Assembly (NCBI RefSeq): GCF_007753095.1
Contig: NZ_CP036348.1
Location: forward strand, 1,798,001-1,862,000
Length of the DNA stretch: 64,000 nucleotides
From: Rosistilla carotiformis
Lineage (GTDB): Bacteria; Planctomycetota; Planctomycetia; Pirellulales; Pirellulaceae
Direction of reading: 5' to 3'
In this document: positions 12,798 through 35,241 of the stretch, one piece after another
How the letters are laid out: each line of letters starts with the position of its first letter
How positions within the stretch are numbered: the first letter of the stretch is position 1
Made by a program: the position numbers and the translations under genes
The notes under the pieces: model-generated
Told to the model about the DNA's origin: nothing
Databases searched by the model: none
What the model saw: the letters and a program-made list of their open reading frames with translations, nothing else

Positions 12798-12911
12798 CCG
12801 TTGGGCCTTTGATCCTTCCGCAGGAAAACAGCGGCGACACTAGAAAATTTTGCCCCTCCGTGTCAACGCGACTCGCAAAAACACAGCCTTCAAATGTCGG
12901 AACGTCCATTT

Positions 12912-14205
12912 GACGACAGGGTGCCACTGGCTCTGCCAGTGTTGTGTTGCCGAGGTCCCAGCCTTGGCATAACCCAAAGCCACTACCAAAGTCCGGAAAC
13001 CGAGGGCCGTGTTTGGAAGCTCAAAGTTCGCTCTGTCACCAACCGTTTAACCGTGTTGGAAAACGTTCCGATCATGAGGTGCTAGCTGCTTCGATCGGAA
13101 AGCACTGGCAAAGCCAGTGGCACACGACGACAGAGTGGATCCGAGTTTGCCGATGGAGCACAACTTTGCTTGTAGCATTTGGTGACAGGGTGCCACTGGC
13201 TCTGCCAGTGTTGTGTTGCCGAAGTCCCTGCGTTGGCATAACCCATTGTCACTACCAATGTCCGGGAACCGGAGGGCCGTGTTTGGAAGCTCAAAGCTCG
13301 CTCCGTCACCAAACGTTTAACCGTGTTGGAAAACGTTCCGATCATGAGAGTCTTGCTGCTTCGATCGGAAAGCACTGGCAAAGCCAGTGGCACACGACGA
13401 CAGAGTGGATCCGAGTTTGCCGATGGAGCCCCAACTTTGCTTGTGGCATTTGGTGACAGGGTGCCACTGGCTCTGTCGGTGTTGTGTTGCCGAAGTCCCA
13501 GCTTTGGCATAACCCAAAGCCACTACCAATGTCCGGAAACCGGAGGGCCGTGTTTGGAAGCTCAAAGCTCGCTCCGTCACCAACCGTTTAACCGTGTTGG
13601 AAAACGTTACGATCATGAGGTGCTAGCTGCTTCGATCGGTAAGCACTGGCAAAGCCAGTGGCACACGACGACAGAGTGGATCCGAGTTTGCCGATGGAGC
13701 CCCAACTTTGCTTGTGGCATTTGGTGACAGGGTGCCACTGGCTCTGCCAGTGTTGTGTTACCGAAGTCCCAGCTTTGGCATAACCCAATGCCACTACCAA
13801 AGTCCGGAAACCGAGGGCCGTGTTTGGAAGCTCGAAGCTCGCTCCGCCATCAACCGTTTAACCGTGTTGGAAAACGTTCCGATCATGAGGTGCTAGCTGC
13901 TTCGATCGGAAAGCACTGGCAAAGCCAGTGGCACACGACGACAGAGTGGATCCGAGTTTGCCGATGGAGCCCCTATTTTGCTTGTGGCATTTGGTGACAG
14001 GGTGCCACTGGCTCTGCCAGTGTTTTGTTGCCGAAGTCCCAGCTTTGGCATAACCCATTGTCACTACCAATGTCCGGGAATCGGAGGGCACGTCTGGAAG
14101 CTCAGCTCGAGCCGTCACTGGACGTTTGGCACATTTCAAAACGGTTCCATCATGGGAGTCTTGCTGCTTCGATCGGAGAGCACTGGCGCAGACAGTGGCA
14201 CACGA
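12912..14205. repeat. five tandem ~270-bp repeats, each bounded by 21-bp inverted hairpin arms
   Basis: Five units follow one another with a period of 269-271 bp. The left arm (GTGCCACTGGCTCTGCCAGTG or near it) begins at 12921, 13190, 13461, 13732 and 14002. The right arm (CACTGGCAAAGCCAGTGGCAC) ends at 13123, 13393, 13664, 13934 and 14201. Each arm is itself a 7-bp hairpin (CACTGGC/GCCAGTG), and left and right arms are near-perfect inverted copies, so each unit is a ~203-bp block with inverted ends plus a ~67-bp linker. The fifth unit is the most diverged. Frames open across the repeats are periodic artefacts. The array looks like tandem amplification of a small non-coding, MITE-like element. 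Confidence 0.9.
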
Positions 14206-14328: not shown

Positions 14329-16437
14329 TTATGGAGCCGACTGCCCCAGTTTGTCGAGGACGGACGGTTCGAGATAGCGGATGTGGACAACGCTCATCAA
14401 TTTGCCCGGCCGAGGCCCTTGGCGCCTTTGGATCTCCATCTCTTGTTCATCTCCGGCTGCGGTGCCGACGGCGCGCGTGCCGCTGGCCGGTTCGTAGAAC
14501 GCGATCGTCAACAACCCCAGTTGTTCGCTGTAGCCTTGGCGGCTGGCAAGGGAATCCTTGGCGTCGACCACCTCGAACAACCGCACCTTGCCCCGTTTGC
14601 CGGTCTGCGTAGTGAAGCCAAAAACTTCCCAAGCTGGAGCGCGGCCACGCACCTCTTCGCCGTTAGGGTCGAGAAAACGATGACCGGCTTCATCGAGGCT
14701 CGCGACGGGCATGCCCCACAATTCGGTGGCAAGTCCCTTTTCGGCAACCTTGAGCGTCGTATCGAGTCCGTCGACGAGAACCTTCACCAGCACCAGATCT
14801 CCGCTGTGGTTCTCCAAGCGAATGCGATAGTTGTCCCCTGGCTTTAATCCAACGTAGCAATCGTTGTCGACAAAGACAGGCGTCAGTGTTTGCGATCCCA
14901 CTTTGATCTTCACGTTCAGCTTGTCGGTGAACTCGGGATCTGACAGCGGATGCGGTTGATCGATCTTCTGGTCCAAGCGATCGACCACCGTGGCTGGGAC
15001 CTCTCCCGTGGTGGTCCCCGCGACCGAACGGGCATTGGTCAAGACAACCGCGCGGTCCTCCGGTTTGACCACCACGCTTTGCCCCATCATCGCCCATTCT
15101 CCTTCGCTCATCTCCGCGGTTCCGCCGGTGATACCGATCAAATCGCCCGAGACGGCCTCTTTCAATTCGCACTGCAACCGCACGATCGGCCCCTTGCGAC
15201 CGCGAATCGAACCCAACGCGATCATCCTCATTTGATCGGCTTCTTCAGCGAGGTTTTCGACGCGTTGTGCTGAGGCCAGATCCGCCAGTTTGAATCCCCC
15301 TTGGGCTCGCAACGCCTCACGCAAACGATTGCGATCGACGACGCGAAAGTCGGTGTCTTGGCTTAACAGCGTGAGATTGCGTTCGACTTCATCGCCGCAG
15401 TATTTCCCCAACAAACCAAAGTTGCCTCCCAACACCTCTTCCAACTGGCTGTCGTCGGAAAACTCCAACACCCCGACCTTCTCCAAACGATGTTCTTCCA
15501 TCAGATTGGCCAGATGCTCTGCCATGTTGGCCAGTAGTTTCTTCATCTCTTGAGGGCGAAGCTTGACAATCGCTGGCACGCCCACCACCCGTGGCCCGAT
15601 GATCCGAACGGGAGTTTGGGCGCGCGAAAAACTGGCTTCGGCAGTGTGCCGGACGCGACGATCGACATAACGATGCAATTCGTCGATATCGACGCGACCA
15701 TCGCTGTCTCGGTCCGCATGCCCCTTCAACCCTTCGGTCAACCAATAACTGTACAGCGAGCGTTGCTTTCCATACCACAACTGACTCTTCTCATCCGATT
15801 TGCAGCTGGCCAGTGTGACAACGCCGGCAACCGACTTAAATTGGTTGCCAATCACATCGGCGGACATCATGGTTGCATCATCGACGGCATTCTTTTCCGA
15901 CCCGGCATGACACGAATCGATAATCAACAACTTAAAATCGGCTTTGCATTTCCCAATTTCGTCGCGTAACCAGTCGACCGACAGACCCGTCTCTACAGCG
16001 TTTTGAGGATCAAAATCTAAGGGTGCAAGGTACATCTTTCCATCAGCAGATTGAAAACCATGACCGCTGAAATAGACCATGATCGTGTCTTCCGGCTTAG
16101 GGCCGGCGAGCCATTTCGGCAATCGCTTCTTTAACGTTTGAATGCGCGGTTGAGAATCCGCATCGGCCTGTTCATCGGTCAATTCGAGCAGGTGACGCGT
16201 TTGATAGCCACCGTAGCTGCTCAAGGTCTCGCTGAGTTGCCGAACATCATTGACGGTGAATTGCAACGGAACGACTCTCTCATACGCCTCGGCTCCGATC
16301 AATACGGCCCATTGGTTCCCCGTCGCTTCCGCGGCTGGCGCCGGCGTCACCGAGAAGGTTGCACTAACTGTGCAAAGGATCCAAGTCGCGATCGTGAGGG
16401 ATGAAAAACGAAGGTTGCAATATCTTGTGTTCGTCAT
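14329..16437 (-). CDS. exported caspase-family (peptidase C14) protein with EF-hand
   Basis: I chose the ATG at 16437, 18 codons inside the longest frame, because it starts a signal peptide (MTNTRYCNLRFSSLTIATWILC...) ending near 'APAAEA'. The caspase-fold domain covers roughly residues 40-260: 'WAVLIGAEAY', catalytic His in 'VYFSGHG' (about H126) and catalytic Cys in 'IDSCHAGS' (about C176). Directly after lies a perfect EF-hand loop, DRDSDGRVDIDE (about 242-253), which suggests calcium binding. The C-terminal 350 residues include a curli-assembly/FlgO-like region ('LSQDTDFRVVDRNRLREAL', 'MIALGSIRG') and a DUF4384-like beta segment. It is the last gene of the four-gene protease cluster. The substrate is unknown. 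Confidence 0.85.
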   Translation of the reverse strand: MTNTRYCNLRFSSLTIATWILCTVSATFSVTPAPAAEATGNQWAVLIGAEAYERVVPLQFTVNDVRQLSETLSSYGGYQTRHLLELTDEQADADSQPRIQTLKKRLPKWLAGPKPEDTIMVYFSGHGFQSADGKMYLAPLDFDPQNAVETGLSVDWLRDEIGKCKADFKLLIIDSCHAGSEKNAVDDATMMSADVIGNQFKSVAGVVTLASCKSDEKSQLWYGKQRSLYSYWLTEGLKGHADRDSDGRVDIDELHRYVDRRVRHTAEASFSRAQTPVRIIGPRVVGVPAIVKLRPQEMKKLLANMAEHLANLMEEHRLEKVGVLEFSDDSQLEEVLGGNFGLLGKYCGDEVERNLTLLSQDTDFRVVDRNRLREALRAQGGFKLADLASAQRVENLAEEADQMRMIALGSIRGRKGPIVRLQCELKEAVSGDLIGITGGTAEMSEGEWAMMGQSVVVKPEDRAVVLTNARSVAGTTTGEVPATVVDRLDQKIDQPHPLSDPEFTDKLNVKIKVGSQTLTPVFVDNDCYVGLKPGDNYRIRLENHSGDLVLVKVLVDGLDTTLKVAEKGLATELWGMPVASLDEAGHRFLDPNGEEVRGRAPAWEVFGFTTQTGKRGKVRLFEVVDAKDSLASRQGYSEQLGLLTIAFYEPASGTRAVGTAAGDEQEMEIQRRQGPRPGKLMSVVHIRYLEPSVLDKLGQSAP

Positions 16438-16565
16438 GAGAGTATTTCTGTACGATGGTGATGTTGAAATGATTGCCCAAGACTTTTGCAAAGTTTTCCT
16501 GTTGCAGAAAGTTCATTTTTGTCGCGTGGATGTAAGATTCTTACTGCTGATGCCCGACATCGTGC

Positions 16566-18188
16566 TTATGGTTTCATCCAAACCTTTTGTTGGGTCGGTT
16601 TGTAGAGCAACGGATGATGCGGTTGAATGAGTTCTTCATTGCCCTTCTGCATGGCCTTGAATTCCTCGGAAGCAAAAAACGCTGCACACCGCTGGGCCAC
16701 CACACCGTAAGTTTGTTCGATCTCCATCGGGCCCCGTGCTAGTTGAAGCGCCATGATTAACTCATGTGTCATGACACTCAGATTCCCATCGGGTCGGACC
16801 AACGAAAGTTCGGACGTTGAGCTTGCTGTCAAAACGCAAGTATTGGATTGCCCAATGTCTTTCAGTCGCGTGACTTCTTGGTCTAAAAAGTCGGAAGGCA
16901 TTGGCGCATGATTTCGATTGGGAACATTCCGTGAAATCGCATCAGGATCGGAAATCGATTTTTCGTTGGTCACATAGCCGCCCGAATGGCAAACGTCCAA
17001 AATAACAACAATTTCGCGACCGGCGAGCGATTGCAACCAGTGGGCGAACAAATCGTCGGTGACGCCGGTTTGACGCGCGAGTTTGTGATGCGCGACTTCG
17101 GCCGAATCGACCCCCTGAATTATGCGACGTAAAGCCGGAATCAGTGCTTTGTTTTCGGGCGTGATCGTTCCCTCCTCTGCCTGCTTCAAAAGACCCAAAC
17201 ATTCTGGTAACCCGATGAAGTCGGAAGGCAATAGAAGTTCGTCCTGTTTGTCGGCTTCGTCACCTCCGTCGTCAGGAATTTGTCCACCGTGGCCGGAAAA
17301 GTAAATAAAGACGGTATCGCCAGGACGCGACTTCTGGGGCAGCCATTGGGTCACCATCGATTCGAGATTGGCACGCGTTGCTTGTTCGTTGACAAACACA
17401 CGCGACTCATGAATGTCGCCCACATGATTCATCATCTCGTTCAAGATCATTGCATCGCGATGCGGACTGCTAAGATTCGAATTGTGTTCGGTGAATAGTT
17501 CTGCTTGTTTGGAGAACTGGTATTCAGAGACACCGAAGTAGACTGCAAATCGTTTCGCCCCCGATGCCGCAAGTTCTTGATTGCGGGCGTACGTCGTCAC
17601 TTTCACTTCGGTTTCAGCCCATGTTTTTGAAACCTGCGCCGGCTGTTCAGCATTTGGCGGTACCGACTCTTGTGACTCTACCGCATTTTTATTGACCAAC
17701 TTGTTCGTCACACGTTCCAGCTCATCCTTTGAAACCACGTTAAATCGCTTCGACTTCATTTGTTCGCTGGATAAGTTTTCGATTGGCGTTTCACTTGCGA
17801 TCACCTTCACGGTCTCGGTCCCAAACGGCGCGGCGATTCGCCAGCGGAATTGATCGTCCGCCGAAGGAATCGTCACGACCTCTTTCGCCTTCACGCGATT
17901 GTTTTGCTGACCTGCATTCGGGAAGACCTGATACGCACTGCCATCGGATTGTTGATAGATGACGTAAAGATACGCGTCGCGTTCACTGACCACTCGAATG
18001 CGAAACTCATCCCCCTCGCGATAGTCTTGATTGCCATGGTTAACCTGTGCGTTCACCATAAAGTCGGGAGCGTCTTGCTGAATCGCAGAAACCGACTCCA
18101 CCGTCTCGGCGGTCCACCCGAACTGAGACCCAAAAAACGTACTCACGAGCAACAGGGATATTCGCAGAAATTTGTCTACGTTGTGCAT
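16566..18188 (-). CDS. exported DUF4384-caspase (peptidase C14) protein
   Basis: The ATG at 18188 gives a normal signal peptide (MHNVDKFLRISLLLVSTFFGSQFGWTA); the longer frame to 18257 adds 23 unconvincing residues. A DUF4384-type beta domain follows ('YREGDEFRIRVVSERDAYLYVIYQQSDGSAYQVFPN', cut here for length). The C-terminal caspase-like domain starts at 'RFAVYFGVSEY'; His sits in 'FIYFSGHGG' (about H300) and Cys in 'ILDVCHSGG' (about C400). DUF4384 often accompanies bacterial caspase-like proteins. It lies between the TPR-CHAT gene (108 bp upstream) and the EF-hand caspase gene (128 bp downstream). Confidence 0.88.
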   Translation of the reverse strand: MHNVDKFLRISLLLVSTFFGSQFGWTAETVESVSAIQQDAPDFMVNAQVNHGNQDYREGDEFRIRVVSERDAYLYVIYQQSDGSAYQVFPNAGQQNNRVKAKEVVTIPSADDQFRWRIAAPFGTETVKVIASETPIENLSSEQMKSKRFNVVSKDELERVTNKLVNKNAVESQESVPPNAEQPAQVSKTWAETEVKVTTYARNQELAASGAKRFAVYFGVSEYQFSKQAELFTEHNSNLSSPHRDAMILNEMMNHVGDIHESRVFVNEQATRANLESMVTQWLPQKSRPGDTVFIYFSGHGGQIPDDGGDEADKQDELLLPSDFIGLPECLGLLKQAEEGTITPENKALIPALRRIIQGVDSAEVAHHKLARQTGVTDDLFAHWLQSLAGREIVVILDVCHSGGYVTNEKSISDPDAISRNVPNRNHAPMPSDFLDQEVTRLKDIGQSNTCVLTASSTSELSLVRPDGNLSVMTHELIMALQLARGPMEIEQTYGVVAQRCAAFFASEEFKAMQKGNEELIQPHHPLLYKPTQQKVWMKP

Positions 18189-18296
18189 CGAAAAGGTTCC
18201 ATGAGGTGAGCAGAGGTGAGGTGTTGTTGCGAAATCATCGTCAGAAAACGCGTTCATCCGCTTTTGGCAAGCCGTGCGGACAGACGCAACATGGAA

Positions 18297-21200
18297 TCAT
18301 CGTCCCGTCAAAGTGAACGCTGCCCAATAAAAAGGATGCGCCGCTCCCAGTGTATTGCGACGATGTTCGATCATCGATCTTTGAGCTGCACATAACGCAG
18401 CCGATTTACTTTTGCCGTTGGCTAGGTTTTGAAAGAATGCCTGCATCAACGGAACGGTTGCCTCATCAGGTATCCTCCAAAGCGAAGAGGCAACGGCATC
18501 GGCCCCCGCAAATTGAAAGGCTTGCCGAAGCCCGGCGACCCCTTCCCCGCAGCGAATGTCCCCGCGACCGGTATCACAGGCGCTGAGCACGACCAATTCG
18601 GTGCCGCGCAGATCGATGCCGACGACTTCTAATCCTGTCAGCACGCCATCGTCTAACAGATCATCCGCGTTTGCATCGCGTTGGTTGCAACCTGAAAACA
18701 GCAGTCCACACCGCAACAGCGGATTTTGCATGACGCTGCCGCCGTGACTCGCCTGCATCGATGAACGCGAAGCACTAGCAGATGGTTGCGGGGTGCCAGC
18801 CGCCGACTCTTGATCGGCGAAAAAGAATCCATGTGTACTTAGTACCAAAACACGTGGTCGATAGCTGGCCTTCACTTGCGTTTCGGTTGCCTGATTGCCT
18901 AAAAAAACTTGCGGCGATTGCCGCGCGAACCGTTGCAGTTCCGGCTCGATCAGTTTGGCTTCGACCTCGGTTCCTTTGAGACGTTGGACATTGTCAATGT
19001 TCTCCACGCTACGCATAGCGAACATCATCGGCGAGGGTGCCGCTAGCGGGCTTGCGACGTCCTGCGCGGCAAGTCGTTCCCGAGCAGAATCGTAGTCAGG
19101 ATTGGCCATGATCACAGGAGCTGTCACACCCGCGTGATTCTGCCGACGCCCCACCAGTTCGCGTCCACTGACAACGTAACGAACGTCCAAACGGTCGATC
19201 AAAAAATCGGAACCGACGGGCAACGCAGCCCACGGCACCAACCATAACGTTGCATCAGGGCTCAGAATTAACTCATCGGCCTCGTCGAGATAAGGCATCA
19301 ACGGCGAAAGGATTTGATCCGACAGCCGCTTCGTTGCGGGGGCCAGACGTTGAACAGCAATTCGTTGCTGTTCGGCACTGATCTCGGGATCTTTCAACGC
19401 GGTTTCGTTCACGACCTCTTGCACTTGTTTGTCGATCGACACGGCGTCACCCAGTGGAACGATTTTGACGTCGCCTTCACCAGATGCTGGAATGACCCAG
19501 GCAACATACTGTGGCGTTCCCCACCGTGTCGCATCGGTTTCGAGCTTCGATTCAGGGCGAAAATCATAAGGTTTGAACTGAATGATCTGAACCATCACCG
19601 ATCCGCTAGGGATATTATCACGCAACTGACCTGGCGACACCCAAGGATCTTGGCCCGACAGACCGGTACCGGCAGAAGCGATCTTGCGTTGCAAGTCCTG
19701 TTGCTCGGATTCGAGTGCCGCAATCTGCTCGCGGCGGGTTTGTTCTGCCGCGGGATCGGCTGCAGCGCCGCTCAGTTGAGACAGTCGAGAGCGAACGGCG
19801 CGCAAACGGCGAACATCTTCAGCGGTCTCAGGACGTGACAACAGTGCGCCTTCGGCGAGTGCTTCTTGACCGATTGCTTTGCCGTTAACCAACCAACCGA
19901 TCGATTGCAGCACTGTCCGTTCGGAGGCTTGGTCTAATAGTGCAAAGGACAATGCTTTCGCAAACTGCTCTGTTTCGGTTTCCTGCAAAAAACGCATCTG
20001 CTCAGCACTGGACAACGTCGGCAAAATGGACGCCAGATAACGACGCACGATTCTCCGCGATTCTTGAATGGATTTTCCCGCTTGACCTCCGCCGGACATC
20101 AACTCCAGTTCTGCCGTTGACATCAGACTGGACGCATAGTTTGGATGATCGGGGCCAAGAGTTCGAAGTAACATCGCGCGCGAACGATCCAAAGTTTCCC
20201 GAGCCTTGGGGAAATCTCCTAATGCGCGATATGCCATCGACATGTCTTCTAATACATACACATTATTGGAGTGGTCCAACCCAAAGGCCTTCTCGCTGAT
20301 TTTCAGCGATCTTTCAAAATGGGTTAGCGCTTGTTCAAAGTCTTTCTCTTCAACGCAAACATTTCCAATACTATTCAGCATGAACGCGACACTACTGCTT
20401 TCCGCACCCAATTGCAGTTGATAGATATCAAGCGCCTGTTGAAAGTAATCTCGAGCTGCAACGTATTGCTTGCGTCTCTTGTTGACTTCCCCCAAATCGC
20501 CCAAAGGACCTGCCAGATACGTATTGTTCGAATCGTAAAACTGTTGGTAAATACCCAACGATTCTTTGAACCGTTGTTCGGCCAAACTATAGTCGCCAAT
20601 CTGCATTGCCAACTGCCCCATTGCTGACAACGTTGAAGCGACATCGTCCGTATCATTCGATGAATGTGCCCGAATAATCTTCAACGCGGTCTCAAGATAA
20701 CCGCGTGCGGTCGAGTAGTCACCCAGCGACATCTTCACCCAGCTGAATGCGGTGTAGGTTCTTGCCAATTCCAAATGCTCGTCGCCCAGGACTTTCCTGC
20801 GGATTCCAATCGCCTTGTTGAAGAATTGTATTGCCGACGAATAATCGTCCAAACGGTATGCAACGAGGCCAAGGTCTTGCATCGTTGAAGCGACGTCCAC
20901 GTCCTCTTCACCGTAGAGTTCGATCATCGTTTTGAGGGCGCGCTGATGACAATCACGAGCTCCATCGAAGTCGTCAAAGCTGTATGACAGTAGATTGCCC
21001 AAACGATTCAACGTGATTGCGGTATCGAATGAGATTTCGCCTAATACGTCCTCATAGATCGCAAGCGCGGCCTCGATCTTCTCCTTCGCCTCGTCACGCT
21101 TATCCAACTCCAGTGCGATGGTGCCCAGTTCACGCAAGCCATTTGCGTATTCCGGCGTTTGTTCGCCTATCGTTTTCCTGTAGATCCGCTGCGACCGATT

Positions 21201-22562
21201 GAACCATTCAATCGCGGTTTCGAATCGGCTCTCCGCTTGAGCTACGCTTGCAAGCAGGTTCAAGGCGTTGGCAACTGCCAGATCTTCATTACCCAATAAC
21301 TTCTCGTTGATGTTCAAAGCACGCAATAAATATTCGTTTGCTTTGCTGAAATTTGACATGTCGCCGTAACACTGGCCGATCAGGCTGATCGTTTCTGCCG
21401 TATCCACATCGTCTTCACCAAACAGTTGGATACGGATCGCCAATGCCTGATTGAAAAACGTCAATGCATCGGCAGGACGGCTCAATGCACGCTGGCAATC
21501 TCCCATATTGGACAGAGCGATCGCGGTGTCGGCGTTTTGCTCTCCGACGCTGCTGCGATAAGCATTTGTTGCGTTTTGATAGAAATCAAAGGCTTCTGAA
21601 AATTTATTTTCTTCCCAACTTAGATTCCCCAACGCATTCAGGATGTTTCCAGCCAGCTGGCTGTTCTCACTCCCTTTCGCCCGATACAAACTCAACGCTT
21701 GATCATAATAGCGACGCGCTTCCCCATACGCTTCGGTCTGACATGCGAGATCCCCCAATTCGGAAATCGTGTCGATCGTCACGTCATCCTGTTCACCCAG
21801 CAATCGCTTGCGGTGAGCGAGCGCTTTGACGAGGTACTCTTTTGCCTTTCCGTAGTCCCCCAAGGCTGATGATACCGTCCCAAGATTATTTAGGGTTCTG
21901 GCAACGTCTTCAAGGGATTTGTCCGCCGTCCGCTCGTAAACTGCTAGCGACTGAAGATACAGGTTTTTCGCCGATTCATAGTCTTCTTCCTCATGAAACA
22001 TCTGGCCCAAATTGTTGAGAGTGGTACCCACGATAGTTTGGTCGTTTCCCACCGAAGCGCCAAAAGATGCTAATGCACGTTTGTAATAATTACGAGCGGA
22101 TTCGAAGTTATCCTCCATATGAAATGCATAGGCGAGTTCAAACAGCGCGAAGCCGGTGGTCTCGTTATTCACACCGAATTGACGTAAACAACGTTGCACT
22201 TCACGTTCCAGTTGGGCGATCGAAGGCTGGTCCTCGTTCGCTTCGTCGTTCGCTTCGTCGTTCGCGGGTTGCTTTGTTTTGGTTTGCAAATCGTCTTTGG
22301 AACCCGTCGGGTTTACTGGCTTCGGCATCTTTCCTGACGGCGGGTTTTGCACCTGCTCTGGCCCCAAGTCACGCTCGAGTCGTGCTTTCCGCGCGTCTTC
22401 GATTTGTTTCAATTGCGCTTCTGCTTTCTCTCGCGTCGCTTCTGCCTGAGCGATCTGTTCTTCGACGGTCTTTTGGGCAAAAGCAGGCGTCATCGAAAAC
22501 AAAACCAGCGTGAATAACCACGGTCGAGATCCGTTAGAGACGATGCGGAATATTGCGTTCAC
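18297..22562 (-). CDS. exported giant TPR-CHAT protein (caspase-fold protease), second of a tandem pair
   Basis: The gene starts with GTG at 22562, two bases after the TAA of the upstream paralogue, implying translational coupling. A signal peptide (MNAIFRIVSNGSRPWLFTLVLFSMTPAFA) is followed by a charged coiled coil (about 30-65) and then a long run of roughly 16-17 tetratricopeptide units of about 42 residues (about 120-820). A helical linker leads to a C-terminal CHAT domain with His in 'LVLSTHGFFF' (about H1244) and Cys in 'VVLSACDTG' (about C1329). CHAT domains are clan CD caspase relatives. TPR solenoids usually hold the partner or the autoinhibited state. The substrate and trigger are unknown. 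Confidence 0.92.
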   Translation of the reverse strand: MNAIFRIVSNGSRPWLFTLVLFSMTPAFAQKTVEEQIAQAEATREKAEAQLKQIEDARKARLERDLGPEQVQNPPSGKMPKPVNPTGSKDDLQTKTKQPANDEANDEANEDQPSIAQLEREVQRCLRQFGVNNETTGFALFELAYAFHMEDNFESARNYYKRALASFGASVGNDQTIVGTTLNNLGQMFHEEEDYESAKNLYLQSLAVYERTADKSLEDVARTLNNLGTVSSALGDYGKAKEYLVKALAHRKRLLGEQDDVTIDTISELGDLACQTEAYGEARRYYDQALSLYRAKGSENSQLAGNILNALGNLSWEENKFSEAFDFYQNATNAYRSSVGEQNADTAIALSNMGDCQRALSRPADALTFFNQALAIRIQLFGEDDVDTAETISLIGQCYGDMSNFSKANEYLLRALNINEKLLGNEDLAVANALNLLASVAQAESRFETAIEWFNRSQRIYRKTIGEQTPEYANGLRELGTIALELDKRDEAKEKIEAALAIYEDVLGEISFDTAITLNRLGNLLSYSFDDFDGARDCHQRALKTMIELYGEEDVDVASTMQDLGLVAYRLDDYSSAIQFFNKAIGIRRKVLGDEHLELARTYTAFSWVKMSLGDYSTARGYLETALKIIRAHSSNDTDDVASTLSAMGQLAMQIGDYSLAEQRFKESLGIYQQFYDSNNTYLAGPLGDLGEVNKRRKQYVAARDYFQQALDIYQLQLGAESSSVAFMLNSIGNVCVEEKDFEQALTHFERSLKISEKAFGLDHSNNVYVLEDMSMAYRALGDFPKARETLDRSRAMLLRTLGPDHPNYASSLMSTAELELMSGGGQAGKSIQESRRIVRRYLASILPTLSSAEQMRFLQETETEQFAKALSFALLDQASERTVLQSIGWLVNGKAIGQEALAEGALLSRPETAEDVRRLRAVRSRLSQLSGAAADPAAEQTRREQIAALESEQQDLQRKIASAGTGLSGQDPWVSPGQLRDNIPSGSVMVQIIQFKPYDFRPESKLETDATRWGTPQYVAWVIPASGEGDVKIVPLGDAVSIDKQVQEVVNETALKDPEISAEQQRIAVQRLAPATKRLSDQILSPLMPYLDEADELILSPDATLWLVPWAALPVGSDFLIDRLDVRYVVSGRELVGRRQNHAGVTAPVIMANPDYDSARERLAAQDVASPLAAPSPMMFAMRSVENIDNVQRLKGTEVEAKLIEPELQRFARQSPQVFLGNQATETQVKASYRPRVLVLSTHGFFFADQESAAGTPQPSASASRSSMQASHGGSVMQNPLLRCGLLFSGCNQRDANADDLLDDGVLTGLEVVGIDLRGTELVVLSACDTGRGDIRCGEGVAGLRQAFQFAGADAVASSLWRIPDEATVPLMQAFFQNLANGKSKSAALCAAQRSMIEHRRNTLGAAHPFYWAAFTLTGR

Positions 22563-22564
22563 GC

Positions 22565-25500
22565 TTATCTTCCTGTCAGAGTAAAGGCGGCCCAGAAATA
22601 GGGATGTGCGACGCCGGCAATGCGGCGACGCTGGTCGATGATGCTGCGTTGAGCATCACATAACGCTTGAGCTTTGCGTTTTCCCGAGGCGAGATTTGCG
22701 AAGAACGTTTGCATCAGCGAGACCGTTGCGTCGTCTGGAATCGTCCACAACGTGGCAGCAACCGCTTCGGCTCCGGCGAATTGAAAAGCTTGACGCAGTC
22801 CCGCGACCCCTTCGCCACATTGGATGCTTCCCAAACCCGTGTTGCAAGCGCTCAAAACAACTAACTCCGTGCCTCGCAGGTCGATTCCGACAACTTCCAA
22901 TCCGGTTAATACGCCATCATCGGACACCGAATCGAGAACATTCCGGCGGTTATTGCAACCGGCGAGCATCAACCCGCACCGTACTAGCGGATTGCCCAGC
23001 AGGCGGCCATCAGCCGTTCTTGTTGCAGGTGCATTAGGTCGGTCCGTTGTAGGATGGTCCGCATCGAGCCGAACGACCTGGTCTTCAAAGAAGTATCCAT
23101 GCGTGCTGAGCACAAGAAATCGCGGCCGATAAAGTGATTTGACGGCCGTTTCGGTTGCGTTAGCTTGCAACAACACTTTCGGCGGTCGCGCGGCAAGTTG
23201 TTCTATCTCCGGCGAGATCAACTTTGCCTCGGTGGCAGTCCCTTTCAAACGATTCACATGGTCGATTTCTTCGATGCCCCGTAACGCGAATAGATCGTGA
23301 TCCGCCGAAGCATCTGAATCTTTTGTTGGATGATCGGCGATGTTGCGAAGGTCAAGATTTTGCATTTCCAGATCGTAATCGGGATCCGCAACGATCACGG
23401 GTTCCGTGATCCCCGCATGTTGTCTACGGCTGGCGACCAACTCACGCCCGCTGACGACGAATCGCAAATCATGTCGATCGATGACAAAATCGCGTTCGAT
23501 TGGCAACGCGGCCCAAGGTGCTAACCACAACGCTCCGTCGGGGCTTAGGATCCATTCCTTGGCCTGTTCGGCAAAAGGCAACAACGGGGCGATTAATCGA
23601 TCTGCCAATCCTTTCATCAGAGGCTGCAGTTCGCCAACGGATTGTCGCTCCATTTCAGGCGATGGGTCGGCGGGCATCCCCTTCAGTTTTGTCGTCGTTT
23701 GTTCGACCAGAGCGTCGATTTTCGCAGCATCACCAAGATCAACAATCTTCACGTCCCCTTCTCCGCTAGCGGGAATCAGCCAAGCGAAATATCGTGGTGC
23801 ATCCTGATTCAGCTTGTTTGTCGTCGACGCGTGTTGGCGGAACTCGTAGGGGAAAATTTGTGCAAGTTGAATCATGATGGAACCAGCGGGCAGGCTGTCC
23901 CGCAATTGACCCGCCGAAACCCAAGGATCGACATCCGACATTCCAGTTCCCGCCGCCGCGATTTGACGCTGCAGATCCTGTTGCTCGGTTTCGAAGGCGG
24001 CTATCGCTTCGCGTCGTTCCTGTTCATCCATCTGGCCGACACTCAGACTTCCCAATTGGGAAAGTCGAGCACGAACGACGCGCAGACGGCGTACATATTC
24101 AATCGTTTCAGGTCGCGATAATAAGGCACTTTCGGCAAGCGCTTCTTGCCCGATAGCCTTGCCATTGATCAACCAACCGACCGATTGAATCTTGATCCGT
24201 TCGGACTCGGGGTTTTCGACGGCGAAGGATAAACACTTGGCAAAGCCGTCGGTTTCACTGCGACGTAGAAAGTGTATCTGTTCGTTCGCCGTCATGGTTG
24301 GCAAAACGGTCGCCAATCGCTTTCTGGACAATCGACGGGCTTGTTCAAAATATTGACCAGCCTTTACGGTTTGGTTTGCCTGCGCCTCCAATTCGGCCAA
24401 TGCCATCAGAACCCAAACGACGGACGAATGTTCATGACCCAGCGTTCGTCGCCGGATCGACAATGCCTGCTCCAACGCCTGGCGGGCGTTCTCAAAATCG
24501 CCAGCATCGCGATTGACGACCGCAAGGTTCTCAATCGCGTCGACCGTTTCAAGGCTCTGCGGACCAAGCGCCAATTGAAATATTTCAATCGCCTTTCGAT
24601 AGGCAACTTCCGCCGCGTCCAAATCACCCATTCCTTCCAGGATGGCGCCCTTCATGTTGTACCGTTTGGCAATATGCCAATGTGAGTCACCCAGTGCTTT
24701 GCGACTTTTTTCGAGTGCTAATTCGTTGTATTGAAGTGATTTCTCGTACTCCTTCAAGTCTTTATGCACCATTGCAAGGAAACTCAGCGGCTCGGCGACG
24801 TAGGTGCCGTCATCGCCAAACAATTCCGTGTTGATTTTCAGCGCTCGTTCAAAACACTCTTTCGCAGTAGAGTAGTCGCCCAACGTGTGCGCCAAGTCAC
24901 CTTGATTAATCAGAGCCCCCGCAGTGAGAGAACTTTTCTCACCAAACAGCTTCAAATGGATCTGCAATTGTTGATCAAAATGTCGGCGTGCTGCCACAAA
25001 GTCGCCGCTGCCGTGCGACAGCACGCCCAAGCTATCGAGCAAGTGCGCTGTTTCGACGTGAACATCGCCACATGTCTCCTGCACAATATCTAGCGCTTGC
25101 TGCAACAGACGTTGTGCCGTCGCGTAGTCATCCGACTGACGCGCCAGGTCACCCAACTGCCGCAGGGTTACTGCGACATCCGTACTCCGCCATCCGCTTA
25201 CCTTTTCAAATATCGCTTGGGCGCGTGTGTGATAGGCCTTGGCGCCTTCAAGATCCTGCCTGCCTAGCGATGCAACCGACCCGAGCCAGTTCAAACAAAT
25301 TGCAACTTCTCGGTGCTCCGAACCGTAGATCTGTTCATACATCGGCAACGCGCGATTGAAGTCCTCGGCGGCCTTCTCAAAATCGTCCAACTCATAGCGA
25401 CAGATTCCGAGTTCGCGCCACGCCCGGGCGGTGTTATCCGACACCGAGAGATTTTGCTGATCAAAGATTTTCAAGGCGTCCATATACAGCGGAATTGCCG

Positions 25501-26737
25501 CTTCATAGGCTTCGCGCGCGCTCTCCAGCACGCCCAGATTCAGAATCGTCGCGCCCACCTCTAGATGCGACTCGCCGTATATCCTGCGTTCGATCTCCAA
25601 TACGCGCTGATAATACGCTTCGGCTGCTTCGTAGTCGTACATGCCAAGCGCTGCGTGTCCGCAACCCGTCAACGCACTGGCCGTTTCTGCGTCGTCCTCC
25701 CCAACGATTACGAGCCATCGATTCAATGCTTGTTGATAGTAGTCCAACGATTGCTTGAACTGATTGTCGCTATAAGTCGATTTGCCGAGACTCGCGAAGG
25801 CCGTCGCAACTTCCGCACTTTCATCGCCGTGCACCTTGCGTGAAACCGACAGCATCTCTTGAAAAATATCCACCGCGGCTTTGAATTCGGAAAGCTGGAA
25901 CAGCGTATTCCCCAGGTCCATCATTGTCGCCGCGGTCCGTTCATGCTCGGTTCCTAACACTATCCGAAAGATGGCCAACGCTCGTAGAAAGTGCTTGCGC
26001 GCCGTCTCGTAGTCGCCAACGAAGAACTCAACCAGCCCCAAGCGATGGACAATGTTTCCCTTTTCAATGGTGTCGGTATCTGCAAGCGATTCGAAAACGG
26101 AAAGGGCTTGTTCGAAACTGCGGCGGCTTTCATCGAACTTTTCGCTCAAACGAAGCGTGTCGCCGATTCCAAACAAACACTCTGCCGTTTTGGCGTGTTT
26201 GTTGCCTAGATACCGTTGATAGATCGCAAGGGCCGCTTCAAATTCTTCCGTTGCTTGCACAAGCTGATCCAGTTGTTTGTGCAAGTAACCCAACATCAAA
26301 CGAGATTCAGCGACATCGGGATGTTCTTCACCGAGAACGTCCTGCTCGACGACCAAACAACGTCGAAGGGGTTCAATCGCCGCAGCCCATTCCGCTTTCG
26401 CGTTCAACTCTCGATAGACAGCGAAATCTCGATAGGCCTTTTTCAAACGCTCCTGCTCGGCAGGAGACTGTCCGATCGCGTGGTATTGAAGATCGCTCGA
26501 TTTCAACCAGCCTGGGCGGTCCGAATTCGGAGGCTTCGCCAGGAACCAACCATCCTTTTGCTCTAAGACATAGAGATAGGTGTTGGCTGGCACCGTTGCG
26601 AGCACTTCGTTGCCGTTCATCAATTTTGCGGAGTGCTGCAACAGAATCATCGGGCCTTCCTCGGCCTCTGCCTTGGCAAAGCAGATCCCGATCAGAAGGA
26701 GAAGCCAGAAACACGCACAGGTTTTCAAACGGATCAT
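22565..26737 (-). CDS. exported giant SH3b-TPR-CHAT protein (caspase-fold protease), first of a tandem pair
   Basis: The longest frame begins with GTG at 26794, but the ATG at 26737 starts a compact signal peptide (MIRLKTCACFWLLLLIGICFAKAEA) and is preferred; ATG 26764 is another option. After the signal comes a bacterial SH3-like domain ('NGNEVLATVPANTYLYVLE...DGWFLAKP', ending 'PGWLKSSDL'), then about 16 TPR units, a helical linker and a CHAT domain. The catalytic His is in 'LVLSTHGYFF' and the Cys in 'VVLSACNTG' (about C1317 in longest-frame numbering). It shares architecture and the C-terminal 'HPYFWAAFTLTGR' with the downstream gene, so the two look like a tandem duplication; the SH3b domain is its distinguishing part. 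Confidence 0.9.
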   Translation of the reverse strand: MIRLKTCACFWLLLLIGICFAKAEAEEGPMILLQHSAKLMNGNEVLATVPANTYLYVLEQKDGWFLAKPPNSDRPGWLKSSDLQYHAIGQSPAEQERLKKAYRDFAVYRELNAKAEWAAAIEPLRRCLVVEQDVLGEEHPDVAESRLMLGYLHKQLDQLVQATEEFEAALAIYQRYLGNKHAKTAECLFGIGDTLRLSEKFDESRRSFEQALSVFESLADTDTIEKGNIVHRLGLVEFFVGDYETARKHFLRALAIFRIVLGTEHERTAATMMDLGNTLFQLSEFKAAVDIFQEMLSVSRKVHGDESAEVATAFASLGKSTYSDNQFKQSLDYYQQALNRWLVIVGEDDAETASALTGCGHAALGMYDYEAAEAYYQRVLEIERRIYGESHLEVGATILNLGVLESAREAYEAAIPLYMDALKIFDQQNLSVSDNTARAWRELGICRYELDDFEKAAEDFNRALPMYEQIYGSEHREVAICLNWLGSVASLGRQDLEGAKAYHTRAQAIFEKVSGWRSTDVAVTLRQLGDLARQSDDYATAQRLLQQALDIVQETCGDVHVETAHLLDSLGVLSHGSGDFVAARRHFDQQLQIHLKLFGEKSSLTAGALINQGDLAHTLGDYSTAKECFERALKINTELFGDDGTYVAEPLSFLAMVHKDLKEYEKSLQYNELALEKSRKALGDSHWHIAKRYNMKGAILEGMGDLDAAEVAYRKAIEIFQLALGPQSLETVDAIENLAVVNRDAGDFENARQALEQALSIRRRTLGHEHSSVVWVLMALAELEAQANQTVKAGQYFEQARRLSRKRLATVLPTMTANEQIHFLRRSETDGFAKCLSFAVENPESERIKIQSVGWLINGKAIGQEALAESALLSRPETIEYVRRLRVVRARLSQLGSLSVGQMDEQERREAIAAFETEQQDLQRQIAAAGTGMSDVDPWVSAGQLRDSLPAGSIMIQLAQIFPYEFRQHASTTNKLNQDAPRYFAWLIPASGEGDVKIVDLGDAAKIDALVEQTTTKLKGMPADPSPEMERQSVGELQPLMKGLADRLIAPLLPFAEQAKEWILSPDGALWLAPWAALPIERDFVIDRHDLRFVVSGRELVASRRQHAGITEPVIVADPDYDLEMQNLDLRNIADHPTKDSDASADHDLFALRGIEEIDHVNRLKGTATEAKLISPEIEQLAARPPKVLLQANATETAVKSLYRPRFLVLSTHGYFFEDQVVRLDADHPTTDRPNAPATRTADGRLLGNPLVRCGLMLAGCNNRRNVLDSVSDDGVLTGLEVVGIDLRGTELVVLSACNTGLGSIQCGEGVAGLRQAFQFAGAEAVAATLWTIPDDATVSLMQTFFANLASGKRKAQALCDAQRSIIDQRRRIAGVAHPYFWAAFTLTGR

Positions 26738-27273
26738 GTCGATCGTGGCTGAGTGAGAGACCATAGCGATGCGATGCGTAAACGTTAGCGACACTCCCTA
26801 TTATAGTCATCGAGTTTACCAACCCGCACGGCGAACAAATGTCCATCCAAAGCTTCCATCCGGTGCTGCTCGTTGTGCTCCCACCAACGGCAACCGTATC
26901 GGATCGGCTCTTCATCGTCACGGTTCCGCCGCATGCTGTGGTTCCATCCGGCGCAGCAGTCACAGACGGATACTAGAAGGTAGCTAGCGGTTTTACGAAG
27001 CGACGCAAGGCGAGATATATGACGCTCGCCGCATCGGGTTGGAACCGGCATTCGAGAGTTGATTTTCCGATGTCCCCCACATTCGCACTGGCAAGCAAAG
27101 ATCCGAACTGGGGCACACTTCGAGTGCAACGTGTTGGGAGCCCACTGACGTCCGTTCGACGGACGTTTCCTCGATTGCGTGCCTTTTCAATGAAAGGAGG
27201 CTTACCGTATCGGCCAGGGAACATGGGCAAATCCAGTGGCACTCGACCGTCTCGTAGGCATTGATGCTTTGAT
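26738..27273. other. 536-bp spacer upstream of the protease cluster, with hairpin
   Basis: No convincing gene was found. A perfect 8-bp hairpin ACGTCCGT-TCG-ACGGACGT lies at 27148-27166, downstream of the thioredoxin stop on the minus strand, without a U-tract. A minus-strand frame at 26785-27129 would encode a Cys-rich 114-residue peptide with C-x-C-x-C and CDCC clusters; it is too weak to call as a gene but is noted. The promoter for the CHAT genes must lie here unless they are read through from tssH-trx. Confidence 0.4.
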
Positions 27274-27903: not shown

Positions 27904-30729
27904 TCAAACTTCGTTGGTCGTTTGCATCCAGGCAGCGGAATCGGTGGAATCGATCGGCAGTGCTGGCGATGTCGGTTCGGTTTCGGGAGCGACCGCCTCT
28001 TCCTGATCGACTTCGAATTCGTAGACGAATCCACCGCGATCATCCCAATCGACAACAACGCGTCGCACCGGCTGGCCTTCGACATTGCGAGACAGCAGTT
28101 CGGCCGAGAGCTCTGGCAAGATGTTCTGCTCGATCACCTGGTCGACCTTTCGCGCCCCGGTGTCGACCGAAACGCATTGCTTCGCCAATTGCAGGATCAA
28201 ACCGTCGGTGAAGACGAGTTCCGCCTTGTGGTGTTCGCGCGTCCGTTGAACGACTTTGTTCAGCTTCAGCGTGGCAATCCGCTGCAATACGTCGGTTTCC
28301 AGTGGGAAATAAGGGAGCACGGTGATCCGGCCCAAGAAGGCAGGCTTAAACGTTTTCAACAACTCTTCGTGCAACGCATCTTTCAATTCCACCAGGCTCG
28401 GTTGACGCCCGTCGCTGCACATCTGAGCGATCAAGTCGGTGCCGGCATTGGTCGTCATGATCACCACGCTGTTCTTGAAATCGATGTCGCGGCCTTGGCC
28501 ATCTTTCATCTGTCCCTTGTCGAAGACTTGGTAGAAGACATCTTGCACGCCGGGGTGCGCCTTTTCCAGTTCGTCCAGCAGAATCACCGAGTAGGGTTTA
28601 CGGCGGACCGCTTCGGTCAACACGCCCCCTTCGCCGTAGCCGACGTATCCGGGAGGCGAACCCATCAGCAGCGAAACCTTATGCTCTTCCTTGAACTCCG
28701 ACATGTTGATCGTCGTCAGTTGTTGGGTGCCGCCGTAAAGCGTGTCGGCCAAGGCCAACGCGGTTTCGGTTTTTCCGACGCCCGAAGTTCCGGCCAACAT
28801 GAAGACGCCGATCGGTTTGTTCGGGTCGCCCAGTCCGGCTCGCGAGGTGCGGATGTGGCGAGCGATCTCATCCAATGCGTGCGATTGGCCGACGACCGAT
28901 TCTTCCAGCCGTTGCTTCAGATTCAGAACCGCCGTCGTTTGATCGGTGCTCATCCGTCCCAGTGGAATGCCGGTCCAAGCGGAGATCGTGCTGGCGACCG
29001 ATTGCGAATCGACGTCGACGTACATCAACGGTTCCTCTCCTTGGGTGTCGTCCAAGTCGGCTTCCAGCCGCGTCAGTTCCGCTTGCAATTCGGTCAACGA
29101 CATTGCAGCCAGTGGCGACGTTTCATCGTTCGATTCGTTTTCGGCAACGCGATCGTCGGGCTTAGCCAACGTGTCGGTTGTCTCAACGTTTTTTCGATGG
29201 ATCTGGTCTTTGATCTGCAAGATCTCTTTGACCGCAAACTTTTCTTGATGCCAGCGGGCTTCGAGCTCCGCCAGTTTAGCTTCGCTTTGTTCCAGTCGAC
29301 CGTTCATCTCCGCCAGTTGATCGGCGTGGTCGGCACCCCAGCTCTGTTCGTCTCGCAGCCGATCGCTGCGTCGGCGGATCCGTTCGCACTGAGCACGAGC
29401 GTCTTCGATGGCGCCGGGGGTACTGTTTTGGCTGATCGCGATCCGTGCACATGCGGTGTCCAGAACGCTGACCGCTTTGTCGGGCAACTGGCGACCGGTG
29501 ATGTATCGGCTGCTGAGCGTGACCGCCGAATCGATCGCATCGTCCAGGATTCGCACGCCGTGATGCTGTTCCAACTTGTTCGCCACGCCACGTAACATCG
29601 CCTTGGCCACGTCCAACGAAGGCTCTTCGACCTTGACGACTTGGAAACGCCGCGTCAACGCCGCGTCTTGTTCGAAGTACTTCTTGTACTCCGACCACGT
29701 CGTCGCGGCGATCGTTCGCAATTCGCCACGGGCAAGGGCTGGTTTCAGCAGGTTCGCAGCATCGCCGCCTCCCGCTTGCGCACCGGCACCGATCAGCGTG
29801 TGGGCTTCGTCGATCATCAAGATGATCGGCGTGGGGCTGGCTTGGATTTCGTTGAGGATCGATTTCAGACGATTCTCGAATTCCCCTTTGACTCCCGCTC
29901 CCGCTTCCAATTGTCCCAGATCCAACGAGCGGATCGTGATGTTCTGCAGCGCTTCGGGAACGTCGCCGTTGACCACTTTCAGGGCAAAGCCTTCGACGAC
30001 GGCGGTTTTTCCGACGCCCGGTTCTCCCGTCAGGATCGGGTTGTTCTGCCGGCGACGCAGCAGGATGTCCATCAATTGTCGGATCTCGGCGTCGCGGCCC
30101 AGGACCGGGTCGATCTTGCCATCGCGGGCTTGCTGCGTGACGTCGGCGGTGTAGCGATCCAGGCTGGGCGTTTTGCTGGGGGCACCGCCAGCGTTGGCTG
30201 GGGCCGAATCGTTGCCGGACTGCATAAACGATGTCGGCAGCGACGCGCGCGCTTCGACGCTTTGGGTGGTCACGACAGGTAACGCGTCGGTGATCGCATC
30301 GGCTGAAATTCCGTCGAGCAACCGGACCAGGGGAGCACCGATTTCGAAGTGCAGCGGGTCGCGAACGATCGCCGCCAACAGATGCCCCGATCGAACTTGG
30401 GGAGCGGCGTATTGAACCGACGCCAACATCCAAGCCGCTTTGATCAATTCGACCGTGGTGTTGCTGAGTGCCGGGGCACGGCCGTTGCCGGTCCGCATCT
30501 TGTCCAACACCCCTTCGGCAACCGATTGGAAACGGGCGATATCGATGTCGAAGTGACGCAGCAACAGTGGCAGGTCGCCATCGGTTTCGTCCAGTAGTTT
30601 CAGCAACCAGTGTTCGATCTCGACGTGGAAATGGGTCCGCGACAAACACAAGCCGGCAGCGGATTCGAGGCAACGGCGAGTGGGATCGTTCAGTTTATTG
30701 ACAAGCGATTTGAGTTGCAGCGATGCCAT
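27904..30729 (-). CDS. tssH: type VI secretion ATPase TssH (ClpV)
   Basis: TssH is the hexameric AAA+ ATPase that disassembles contracted TssB/TssC sheaths. The 941-residue protein has a Clp N-domain (about 1-150), NBD1 with Walker A 'GEPGVGKTAVVEG' and Walker B 'ILMIDEAHTLIGAG', a coiled-coil middle region (about 400-530), and NBD2 with 'GTSGVGKTETALA' and 'VILLDELEKAHPGVQD'. The 'LIGAGAQAGGGDAANLLKPALARGELR' stretch (read in two parts) is ClpB/ClpV-like. The T6SS context separates it from ClpB. It is third in the leftward tssL-tssM-tssH arm; a large antisense frame across it is a shadow. Confidence 0.95.
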   Translation of the reverse strand: MASLQLKSLVNKLNDPTRRCLESAAGLCLSRTHFHVEIEHWLLKLLDETDGDLPLLLRHFDIDIARFQSVAEGVLDKMRTGNGRAPALSNTTVELIKAAWMLASVQYAAPQVRSGHLLAAIVRDPLHFEIGAPLVRLLDGISADAITDALPVVTTQSVEARASLPTSFMQSGNDSAPANAGGAPSKTPSLDRYTADVTQQARDGKIDPVLGRDAEIRQLMDILLRRRQNNPILTGEPGVGKTAVVEGFALKVVNGDVPEALQNITIRSLDLGQLEAGAGVKGEFENRLKSILNEIQASPTPIILMIDEAHTLIGAGAQAGGGDAANLLKPALARGELRTIAATTWSEYKKYFEQDAALTRRFQVVKVEEPSLDVAKAMLRGVANKLEQHHGVRILDDAIDSAVTLSSRYITGRQLPDKAVSVLDTACARIAISQNSTPGAIEDARAQCERIRRRSDRLRDEQSWGADHADQLAEMNGRLEQSEAKLAELEARWHQEKFAVKEILQIKDQIHRKNVETTDTLAKPDDRVAENESNDETSPLAAMSLTELQAELTRLEADLDDTQGEEPLMYVDVDSQSVASTISAWTGIPLGRMSTDQTTAVLNLKQRLEESVVGQSHALDEIARHIRTSRAGLGDPNKPIGVFMLAGTSGVGKTETALALADTLYGGTQQLTTINMSEFKEEHKVSLLMGSPPGYVGYGEGGVLTEAVRRKPYSVILLDELEKAHPGVQDVFYQVFDKGQMKDGQGRDIDFKNSVVIMTTNAGTDLIAQMCSDGRQPSLVELKDALHEELLKTFKPAFLGRITVLPYFPLETDVLQRIATLKLNKVVQRTREHHKAELVFTDGLILQLAKQCVSVDTGARKVDQVIEQNILPELSAELLSRNVEGQPVRRVVVDWDDRGGFVYEFEVDQEEAVAPETEPTSPALPIDSTDSAAWMQTTNEV

Positions 30730-30808
30730 CGTGGATACCGTCTCGTGAAAGGAAGGGTGATGTGAGTGGGAAGTGAATTAAAAAGGGAAGTCGCTCGATC
30801 GCGAGCGA

Positions 30809-32551: not shown

Positions 32552-32592
32552 TATAAAGAGGGGGCTGGCGGAGGTGGCGGTGTGTGGTTGCG

Positions 32593-33225
32593 TTAACGGT
32601 TCCAAGCCGAAACGGCGAGGTAGGACATCACGGGCAACAGGACGACGGCGGAGGTCCAACCGATGTAGCCCGCCCGTTGCAGAGCCGCGGCGCCGGTTAA
32701 TGGAGGTGCGTCGGTTGCAGGGGCCAAATCGTTGGCGAAGGGAAGCTTCAATTCGGGTACCAGGCCCAGGCCGAGCCGCGTTTGATGCATCCAGGCAGAT
32801 AACTGTTCCGGATTACTGCGGTGTTGGCCGGTGAAACCGAGGCTGACGCAGAGATAAAAGACGGCCAGGTCTTCGCCACGACCAAGCGTTTCGGCCAATT
32901 GCGCCTGACGCCAGAACATCCAAGCTCGATCGTTGCTGCCGAACAGCTCGCCTTCGATCTTGTTTTCGTTCCAGATCCGACCGGCGGTTGGATCCTCGGT
33001 CATCATCTCATCGATCCAGCAGGCCAACGGATAACCGAGGCCCAGGTAATCGCTGCTGGTGCTGTGCCCGGCGGCGAGTTCGGCGTTGCGAATCCTCGAC
33101 AGCAGCTCTTTTAATTCGCTGCGGCCGCTGGAAAAGCGTTCGGTCTGTCCGGCGGCCAACGCCTCGCGCAATTGCCAGGTTATAGAGAGCACCGGATCGA
33201 CTAGCTGGGCGGTTTCAGGTCGCAT
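32593..33225 (-). CDS. tssL: T6SS inner-membrane protein TssL (DotU family)
   Basis: TssL anchors the T6SS baseplate to the inner membrane together with TssM. The 210-residue protein shows the DotU core: 'PLACWIDEMM', 'WNENKIEGELFGSNDRAWMFW' (cut) and 'AVFYLCVSLGFTGQHR', followed by a single C-terminal membrane helix ('GWTSAVVLLPVMSYLAVSAW') that places the bulk in the cytoplasm. Length and topology are those of the short TssL without a peptidoglycan-binding OmpA domain. It is the first gene of the leftward arm; its start faces tssA across a 287-bp divergent promoter region. Confidence 0.9.
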   Translation of the reverse strand: MRPETAQLVDPVLSITWQLREALAAGQTERFSSGRSELKELLSRIRNAELAAGHSTSSDYLGLGYPLACWIDEMMTEDPTAGRIWNENKIEGELFGSNDRAWMFWRQAQLAETLGRGEDLAVFYLCVSLGFTGQHRSNPEQLSAWMHQTRLGLGLVPELKLPFANDLAPATDAPPLTGAAALQRAGYIGWTSAVVLLPVMSYLAVSAWNR

Positions 33226-33331
33226 GAGTTTTAGATTTTTTGTCTACGGTTTCAGAAGCGGGTTCCGTGCTTCGAAAGCTAGGTCACGACCGGGGGGAAA
33301 GGTGTGAAGTGCCAACGAATTTGCGGCAAAT

Positions 33332-33355: not shown

Positions 33356-33512
33356 CGTGCCCGTGGAATGCTGGGTATGCGGAAATCCGAACGATTTGGG
33401 AAATGCAAATCTTTCTTTTTGCGTCGCCAACTTTTGTGGTCTAGCTTTCTCCGGACATCGCGGCCAACTGCTGCGACGCCAATCCAAATCACACTTTTTG
33501 ATTGAAGCAGCG

Positions 33513-35179: not shown

Positions 35180-35241
35180 TCCCGCATTGATCCGTTATTC
35201 ACTCAAAAAATACATAACCAACACGTTATCGGAGCATTCCT

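Follow-up and report, generated by a model that had tools for sequence, protein, structure and literature searches.

Bacterial proteases with caspase-like or CHAT domains are mostly discussed as cytosolic enzymes of cell death or defence, often gated by NTPases. Passages of a 2012 survey describe metacaspases that probably carry a signal peptide, and operons of up to three metacaspases; the groups named there for such operons are Alphaproteobacteria, Bacteroidetes, Cyanobacteria and Deltaproteobacteria, planctomycetes not being among them, and its main text contains no word starting with 'chat' (PMC3501461). Extracts of other papers describe CHAT genes next to extracytoplasmic function (ECF) sigma factors (ECF54), with subtilase and carboxypeptidase genes and an example from Geodermatophilus (PMC8999054), and DUF4384 domains together with kinases and with orthocaspases (PMC6426788, PMC7475262). 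Here we analyse four genes, g1 to g4, in a 64,000-nucleotide stretch of the Rosistilla carotiformis genome (contig NZ_CP036348.1, positions 1,798,001 to 1,862,000; hereafter the window), which encode a C14 caspase-fold protease, a DUF4384-C14 protease and two tetratricopeptide repeat (TPR)-CHAT proteases, all four of clan CD. Homologues of these genes recur together in other planctomycetes, and we propose, with a probability of roughly 0.45, that they form a module of exported proteases of the caspase family, accessory and laterally assorting, whose members cooperate outside the cell or in its envelope. A preliminary description of this DNA knew of no system with such a composition, and searches of the open-licence PMC literature likewise found no description of exported C14, DUF4384-C14 and TPR-CHAT proteins as a joint set.

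Anatomy of the cluster and its catalytic residues

The cluster consists of four real open reading frames (ORFs) in a row on the minus strand, transcribed in the order g4, g3, g2, g1 and separated by 2, 39 and 74 bp, respectively. g1 (14329-16491, 720 amino acids) matches the C14 family (Pfam E = 5.6e-21), g2 (16566-18257, 563 amino acids) joins a DUF4384 domain (Pfam E = 6.5e-25) to a C14 domain (E = 1.5e-15), and g3 (18297-22562, 1421 amino acids) and g4 (22565-26794, 1409 amino acids) each carry a long TPR array and a CHAT domain (Pfam E-values of the pair, 1.2e-65 and 6.2e-61). ORFs, Pfam domains and the motifs in the translations (FSGHG/DSCHAG, FSGHGG/DVCHSG, STHGFF/SACDTG and STHGYF/SACNTG) agree with the preliminary description of four consecutive minus-strand genes with a caspase-type His/Cys dyad, two of which, g4 and g3, lie 2 bp apart. 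The g4 ORF ends at 26794 rather than at 26737 as given there, the latter position being an internal ATG start (MIRLKTC).

g1 and g2 have the fold and the His/Cys dyad of C14 metacaspases and orthocaspases. The caspase domain of g1 spans residues 60-294, with its dyad at H144/C194, S1-type aspartates at 82 and 192 and the likely start methionine at 16437. Within this domain lies an EF-hand-type loop (260-271) with Asp at loop position 1 in 12 of 13 members, Asp at position 5 in 11 of 13, Gly at position 6 in 12 of 13 and Glu at position 12 in all 13; Pfam matches the loop weakly. The C-terminal ~400 amino acids of g1 match no Pfam family. g2 has a hydrophobic N-terminus followed by DUF4384 (79-158) and C14 (236-525; dyad H323/C423). 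g3 and g4 show the architecture of TPR-CHAT proteases, a TPR array followed by a C-terminal CHAT domain with a His/Cys dyad. In g3, the array resembles kinesin light chain and the CHAT domain spans 1077-1420 (dyad H1244/C1329); g4, with CHAT at 1058-1408, is its paralogue (56% identity across the CHAT part). The N-terminus of g4 bears a resemblance to SH3 domains, judged solely from a weak SH3_3 match in the related CHAT protein of locus L051.

Structural models were consistent with these assignments. AlphaFold gave mean predicted local distance difference test scores of 73.8 for g1 and 74.7 for g2; the caspase domain of g1 aligned with Arabidopsis metacaspase 4 over 221 residues (Z 23.8, root-mean-square deviation 2.4), and the Foldseek matches of the g2 model were metacaspases and caspases. 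Pfam searches with 13 g1 members returned C14, C13 and EF-hand-type matches plus scattered weak matches in single members. The VIA-align list for the g1 model was occupied by matches to the caspase part, so that it barely tested the last ~400 residues. An early guess of a CsgG-like domain in this region was unsupported by any search.

The catalytic dyad is intact in all members compared (13/13 g1, 10/10 g2 and 14/14 module CHAT domains); for planctomycete metacaspases, the part of the 2012 survey that covers them gives retention in 64% (PMC3501461). Since 23 of the 24 other CHAT domains in our tree also keep it, dyad retention is not special to the module's CHAT proteins. The S1-type aspartates are kept in 13 of 13 g1 members (D82/D192) and in 9 of 10 g2 members each (D268/D421). 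A motif alignment by eye pairs them with the S1 residues Asp95/Asp211 of TbMC2, as given in section 17 of PMC6426788, and by this alignment g1 and g2 would have an acidic S1 pocket for Arg or Lys.

We scored export with a simple in-house measure that combines a positive start, a hydrophobic stretch and an A-x-A-like site. Within the cluster g1, g3 and g4 were positive, and across loci so were 13 of 16 g1, 9 of 11 g2 and 12 of 13 CHAT proteins, compared with 1 of 20 control proteins from the window, namely an MsrA whose N-terminus is an ordinary signal peptide. A hydropathy scan found no further membrane segment in the cluster proteins. These results support, without proving, an outer location.

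In the genome (7.44 Mb, one contig), both strong CHAT domains lie in the cluster and one further CHAT gene is weak; two of the six C14 matches and the single DUF4384 match, in g2, are also in the cluster. Such low numbers argue that the clustering is not due to chance. A second neighbouring pair of C14 matches is present outside the window (G000:C1:2285384-2288507).

Recurrence in other planctomycetes

A scan of GTDB contigs with g1 returned 31 loci; 12 match most of the protein, all of them planctomycete-named, and 19 match the caspase part alone and served as controls. Profile searches with g1 gave matches in 14 of 146 genomes of the order (14 long) and in 8 of 199 genomes of the family (6 long); the module is rare in the family. 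Our comparisons use 29 loci outside the window, each matching g1 across roughly 400 positions or more, with copies (L133, L134, L135 and L147, of L083, L084, L090 and L092) and matches of caspase-domain length only (G165, G178 and the second G248 match) left out. Counts derive from profiles on six-frame translations, the g2 and CHAT profiles having been built partly from some of the same loci.

Seventeen of the 29 loci carry g2 (L051, L052, L053, L083, L084, L086-L091, L116, L137, L138, L142, L145 and L146), 13 carry TPR-CHAT (L051, L052, L053, L086, L087, L088, L090, L091, L116, L137, L140, L141 and L143), 10 both, 20 either and 26 any further C14 or CHAT gene. Genes frequently lie tightly packed on the same strand, in the layouts g2-CHAT-g1 (L137, L116), CHAT-g2-CHAT-CHAT-g1 (L051) and g2-g2-CHAT-g1 (L090); in L052 and L053, g1 is oriented away from g2. 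None of the 19 control loci has g2 or CHAT, in agreement with tblastn, and a second C14 gene is present in one of them (the caspase of control L107 is too weak to be labelled). Rough chance expectations for the 375 kb of flanking sequence are 0.05 CHAT and 0.003 g2 genes. In-frame stops fall within the g1 match in L136, L138 and L140, and the gene is actually split in L140 alone. First phylum-wide scans at E 1e-25 had found a 4-row g1 model in 9 of 392 genomes and a 6-row g2 model in 1 of 392, with a full-length match in the window genome alone and two to three candidates scored per genome; these are undercounts, because the GTDB scan and a 13-row model found more. The co-occurrence in relatives on which the preliminary description had staked its proposal is therefore present. 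Across Pirellulaceae, where that description had suggested looking for it, long g1 matches are limited to the few family genomes counted above, and the two same-genus genomes compared have none.

A phylogeny of 38 CHAT domains places the 14 from modules in two groups, and their union in a single clade was rejected (approximately unbiased test, P = 0.006). Labels change twice on this tree, compared with 11.6 times in shuffles. It is a quick tree, in which one group sits on a long branch; row x131, whose branch is very long and which lacks the dyad, is doubtful. g1 and g2 distances correlate across 13 loci (r 0.60; as high in 4 of 5000 permutations).

Genomic site and neighbouring genes

The cluster occupies a variable site. 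The segment 12889-27274 is absent from a genome of the same genus (G151), whose DNA aligns with the window as far as 12888 and resumes at 27275, and where the lipase-like gene downstream of the cluster and the thioredoxin-like gene upstream adjoin each other, leaving an empty site. Another genome of the genus (G205) carries ~3.7 kb of other DNA there (L046:8690-12420), with a DEAD/ResIII helicase and a 375-amino-acid ORF that has no Pfam match. Taken together, the empty site in one relative and the different cargo in the other mark the cluster as accessory, at a location whose content varies. Both genomes lack g1 as well as g2. By eye the 375-amino-acid ORF resembled a transposase, a candidate we rejected.

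At the left edge of the segment lies an array resembling repetitive extragenic palindromic (REP) sequences (12907-14205; 270 bp x 4.8), which has grown locally from a dispersed palindromic repeat; the genome contains 48 matches to this repeat, of which five lie in the array. Near the right edge is a related 22-bp piece of the repeat (about 27226-27247). The four genes have a GC content of 0.530, compared with 0.580, 0.586 and 0.560 for the remaining parts of the window, and their codon usage is not clearly odd. Beyond the thioredoxin-like gene, a type VI secretion system (T6SS) locus spans 27904-41099, with divergent gene sets TssH/TssM-like/TssL and TssA-B-C-Hcp-E-F-G by Pfam; the TssM-like protein is short (616 amino acids). 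Further along, 47352-52796 holds a row of M50/HlyD-type genes, one with a GAF domain.

At other g1 loci, the neighbours hint at control. Of the 29 loci, at least 7 (L052, L053, L083, L084, L137, L141 and L143; chosen ORFs scanned) encode a Ser/Thr kinase near g1. Each of six kinases checked has one transmembrane segment; C-terminal to it, on what is presumably the outer side, lie TPRs in four and DUF4384 in two. Two of them (L141:14525-17059 and L143:1977-4514) combine zf-HC2, kinase, one transmembrane segment and DUF4384 directly 5' of CHAT and g1. Sigma factors match in L052 and L141 and, slightly below the Pfam cut-off, in L142. A TGase_elicitor-DUF4384 protein is encoded immediately 5' of g2 in L086 (1598-3316) and L087 (7-1677), and by eye similar ORFs occur in L142, L145 and L146. 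Further neighbours include WD40 proteins, FGE-sulfatase-caspases and RTX proteins; in L052 (12281-13663), a protein with an RTX repeat and DUF7689 lies between the caspase and CHAT genes and is a possible substrate. The window cluster has none of these kinase, sigma factor, transglutaminase-like, WD40, FGE-sulfatase-caspase or RTX neighbours.

Possible function and relation to known systems

If the four proteins act together, the TPR-CHAT pair could be the sensing part, its TPR superhelix binding a protein or peptide signal. By CHAT cleavage it would activate, or be activated by, the C14 pair. g1 and g2 would be the cutters, cleaving envelope or extracellular proteins after Arg or Lys through the metacaspase-type acidic S1 pocket, with g1 possibly aided by calcium through its EF-hand-type loop. 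Where they lie alongside, single-pass kinases with a cytosolic kinase domain and an outer TPR or DUF4384 part, together with ECF sigma factors, may control expression. A fuller version would be an ATP-free extracytoplasmic cascade: exported TPR-CHAT proteins would serve as soluble receptors and turn on exported C14 proteases that respond to calcium, and in many relatives single-pass kinases with TPR or DUF4384 parts would report the outcome to the cytoplasm. We consider this version unlikely.

Several observations weigh against a module of exported, cooperating proteases. g2 has a hydrophobic segment without a clean A-x-A-like site and fails the export score; it may therefore be anchored rather than cleaved, and the signal peptide that the preliminary description saw on each gene is borne out by the score for the other three. 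In all, five of the 27 g1 and g2 proteins scored fail it, the window g2 included. The window genes differ in their nearest relatives, L086/L087 in the g1 tree, L089 in the g2 tree and, for the CHAT pair, L051 and L116 (Shimodaira-Hasegawa-like approximate likelihood ratio support 90, not starred); the cluster therefore looks like a mosaic with the same composition, deep branches being uncertain, and the g1-g2 distance correlation could also stem from shared host descent. Both g2 and CHAT are missing from nine of the 29 g1 loci (L082, L085, L092, L093, L136, L139, L144, L148 and L149); five of the nine sit on contigs of 3.3-7.4 kb, and the other four have at least 15 kb of sequence. With these loci, and with kinase, sigma-factor, extra caspase and transglutaminase-like neighbours that vary, the term 'self-contained' used in the preliminary description was too strong. 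Five of the 19 controls are planctomycete-titled and 14 are not. Among 20 TPR-CHAT loci sampled regardless of g1, L116 has the full module and L113 one C14 gene, the remaining 18 being without a caspase neighbour, as are 6 of 7 hand-picked TPR-CHAT loci of the family (L059 has a C14 gene). Four contigs (L054-L057; 4-18 kb) hold g2-like genes with neither a long g1 nor CHAT, and in L140 both g1 and CHAT are broken by frame or stop.

It is possible, if on balance doubtful, that exported, co-expressed proteases work in parallel without a cascade, for example in envelope protein turnover or the use of external protein. The compact same-strand layout and export-type N-termini fit such an arrangement, as do member sets that differ among loci as a toolbox would and the transglutaminase-like, WD40 and FGE-sulfatase-caspase neighbours. 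However, long TPR arrays and DUF4384 appear regulatory rather than digestive, kinase and sigma-factor genes adjoin some loci, and the presence of two CHAT lineages beside g1 and g2 suggests a specific partner. The scattered presence, the empty site and the helicase-bearing insert that a relative carries at this position recall defence islands, and the cluster might instead be a device for cell death, fratricide, anti-phage defence or kin recognition that acts outside the membrane, an exported counterpart of cytosolic caspase and CHAT conflict systems. Excerpts from the literature name caspase-like and CHAT domains as effectors of conflict systems (PMC10907252, PMC8195603), and a passage of the 2012 survey proposes a fratricidal outer role for metacaspases with outer parts (PMC3501461). 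Yet the four genes include no NTPase, EACC1, gasdermin or CRISPR gene, and PADLOC returned generic caspase and TPR models with two weak partial matches. Export is also unusual for caspase and CHAT conflict systems, and we consider such a device rather unlikely.

Two further explanations fare worse. That a tandem-duplicated CHAT gene came by chance to lie beside two unrelated caspases would account for the paralogy of g3 and g4, and some CHAT match occurs in 140 of the 146 genomes of the order; against this stand the two strong CHAT and six C14 matches in 7.44 Mb and the recurrence in distant genomes, which we count as refuting it, and chance is very improbable. Adjacency to the T6SS locus raises the idea that the cluster supplies effectors or accessory proteases to that system. 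The two genomes of the same genus keep the T6SS although the cluster is absent from the site, for which reason we dropped a conserved link. Of the 29 g1 loci, 15 were searched by tblastn with the T6SS locus, and none of these gave a T6SS gene. T6SS effectors are, moreover, not loaded through Sec-type N-termini. We consider this connection the most improbable of all.

If the proposed module is real, a recurrent, intact and apparently exported set that draws its CHAT proteins from two lineages would point to ATP-free protease networks outside the membrane, and, were a cascade also to operate, to a pathway of trans-envelope signalling and execution made from parts of apoptosis-like systems. The compact gene set is suited to asking what exported metacaspases do, a question posed in the 2012 survey as excerpted (PMC3501461).

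The closest described systems each share part of this composition. g1 matches the NCBIfam model 'caspase, EACC1-associated type' of EACC1/ternary conflict systems at 108.3 bits, and a second score was 48.5 bits; both fall below the cut-off of 140, and the cluster differs from those systems in having no EACC1 gene or NTPase among its four genes and in proteins that appear exported. Gasdermin-protease pairs are not matched, as the gaps of 74, 39 and 2 bp leave no room and the nearest genes are lipase-like and thioredoxin-like. ECF54 neighbourhoods, exemplified by the actinobacterium Geodermatophilus, differ in that the window cluster has neither sigma factor nor kinase. With Craspase, the type III-E CRISPR system whose TPR-CHAT protein is Csx29, g3 and g4 share, on the descriptions available in extract, a TPR array and a CHAT protease in one chain; they differ by a very long, kinesin-light-chain-like array and an export-type N-terminus, and Pfam scans of the four genes and of neighbouring ORFs returned no Cas7-11 or CRISPR gene. 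The cluster is like prokaryotic metacaspases and orthocaspases in its C14 fold, His/Cys dyad and acidic S1 Asp pair, and it differs from metacaspase operons in that its C14 genes are accompanied by TPR-CHAT genes whose products are probably exported.

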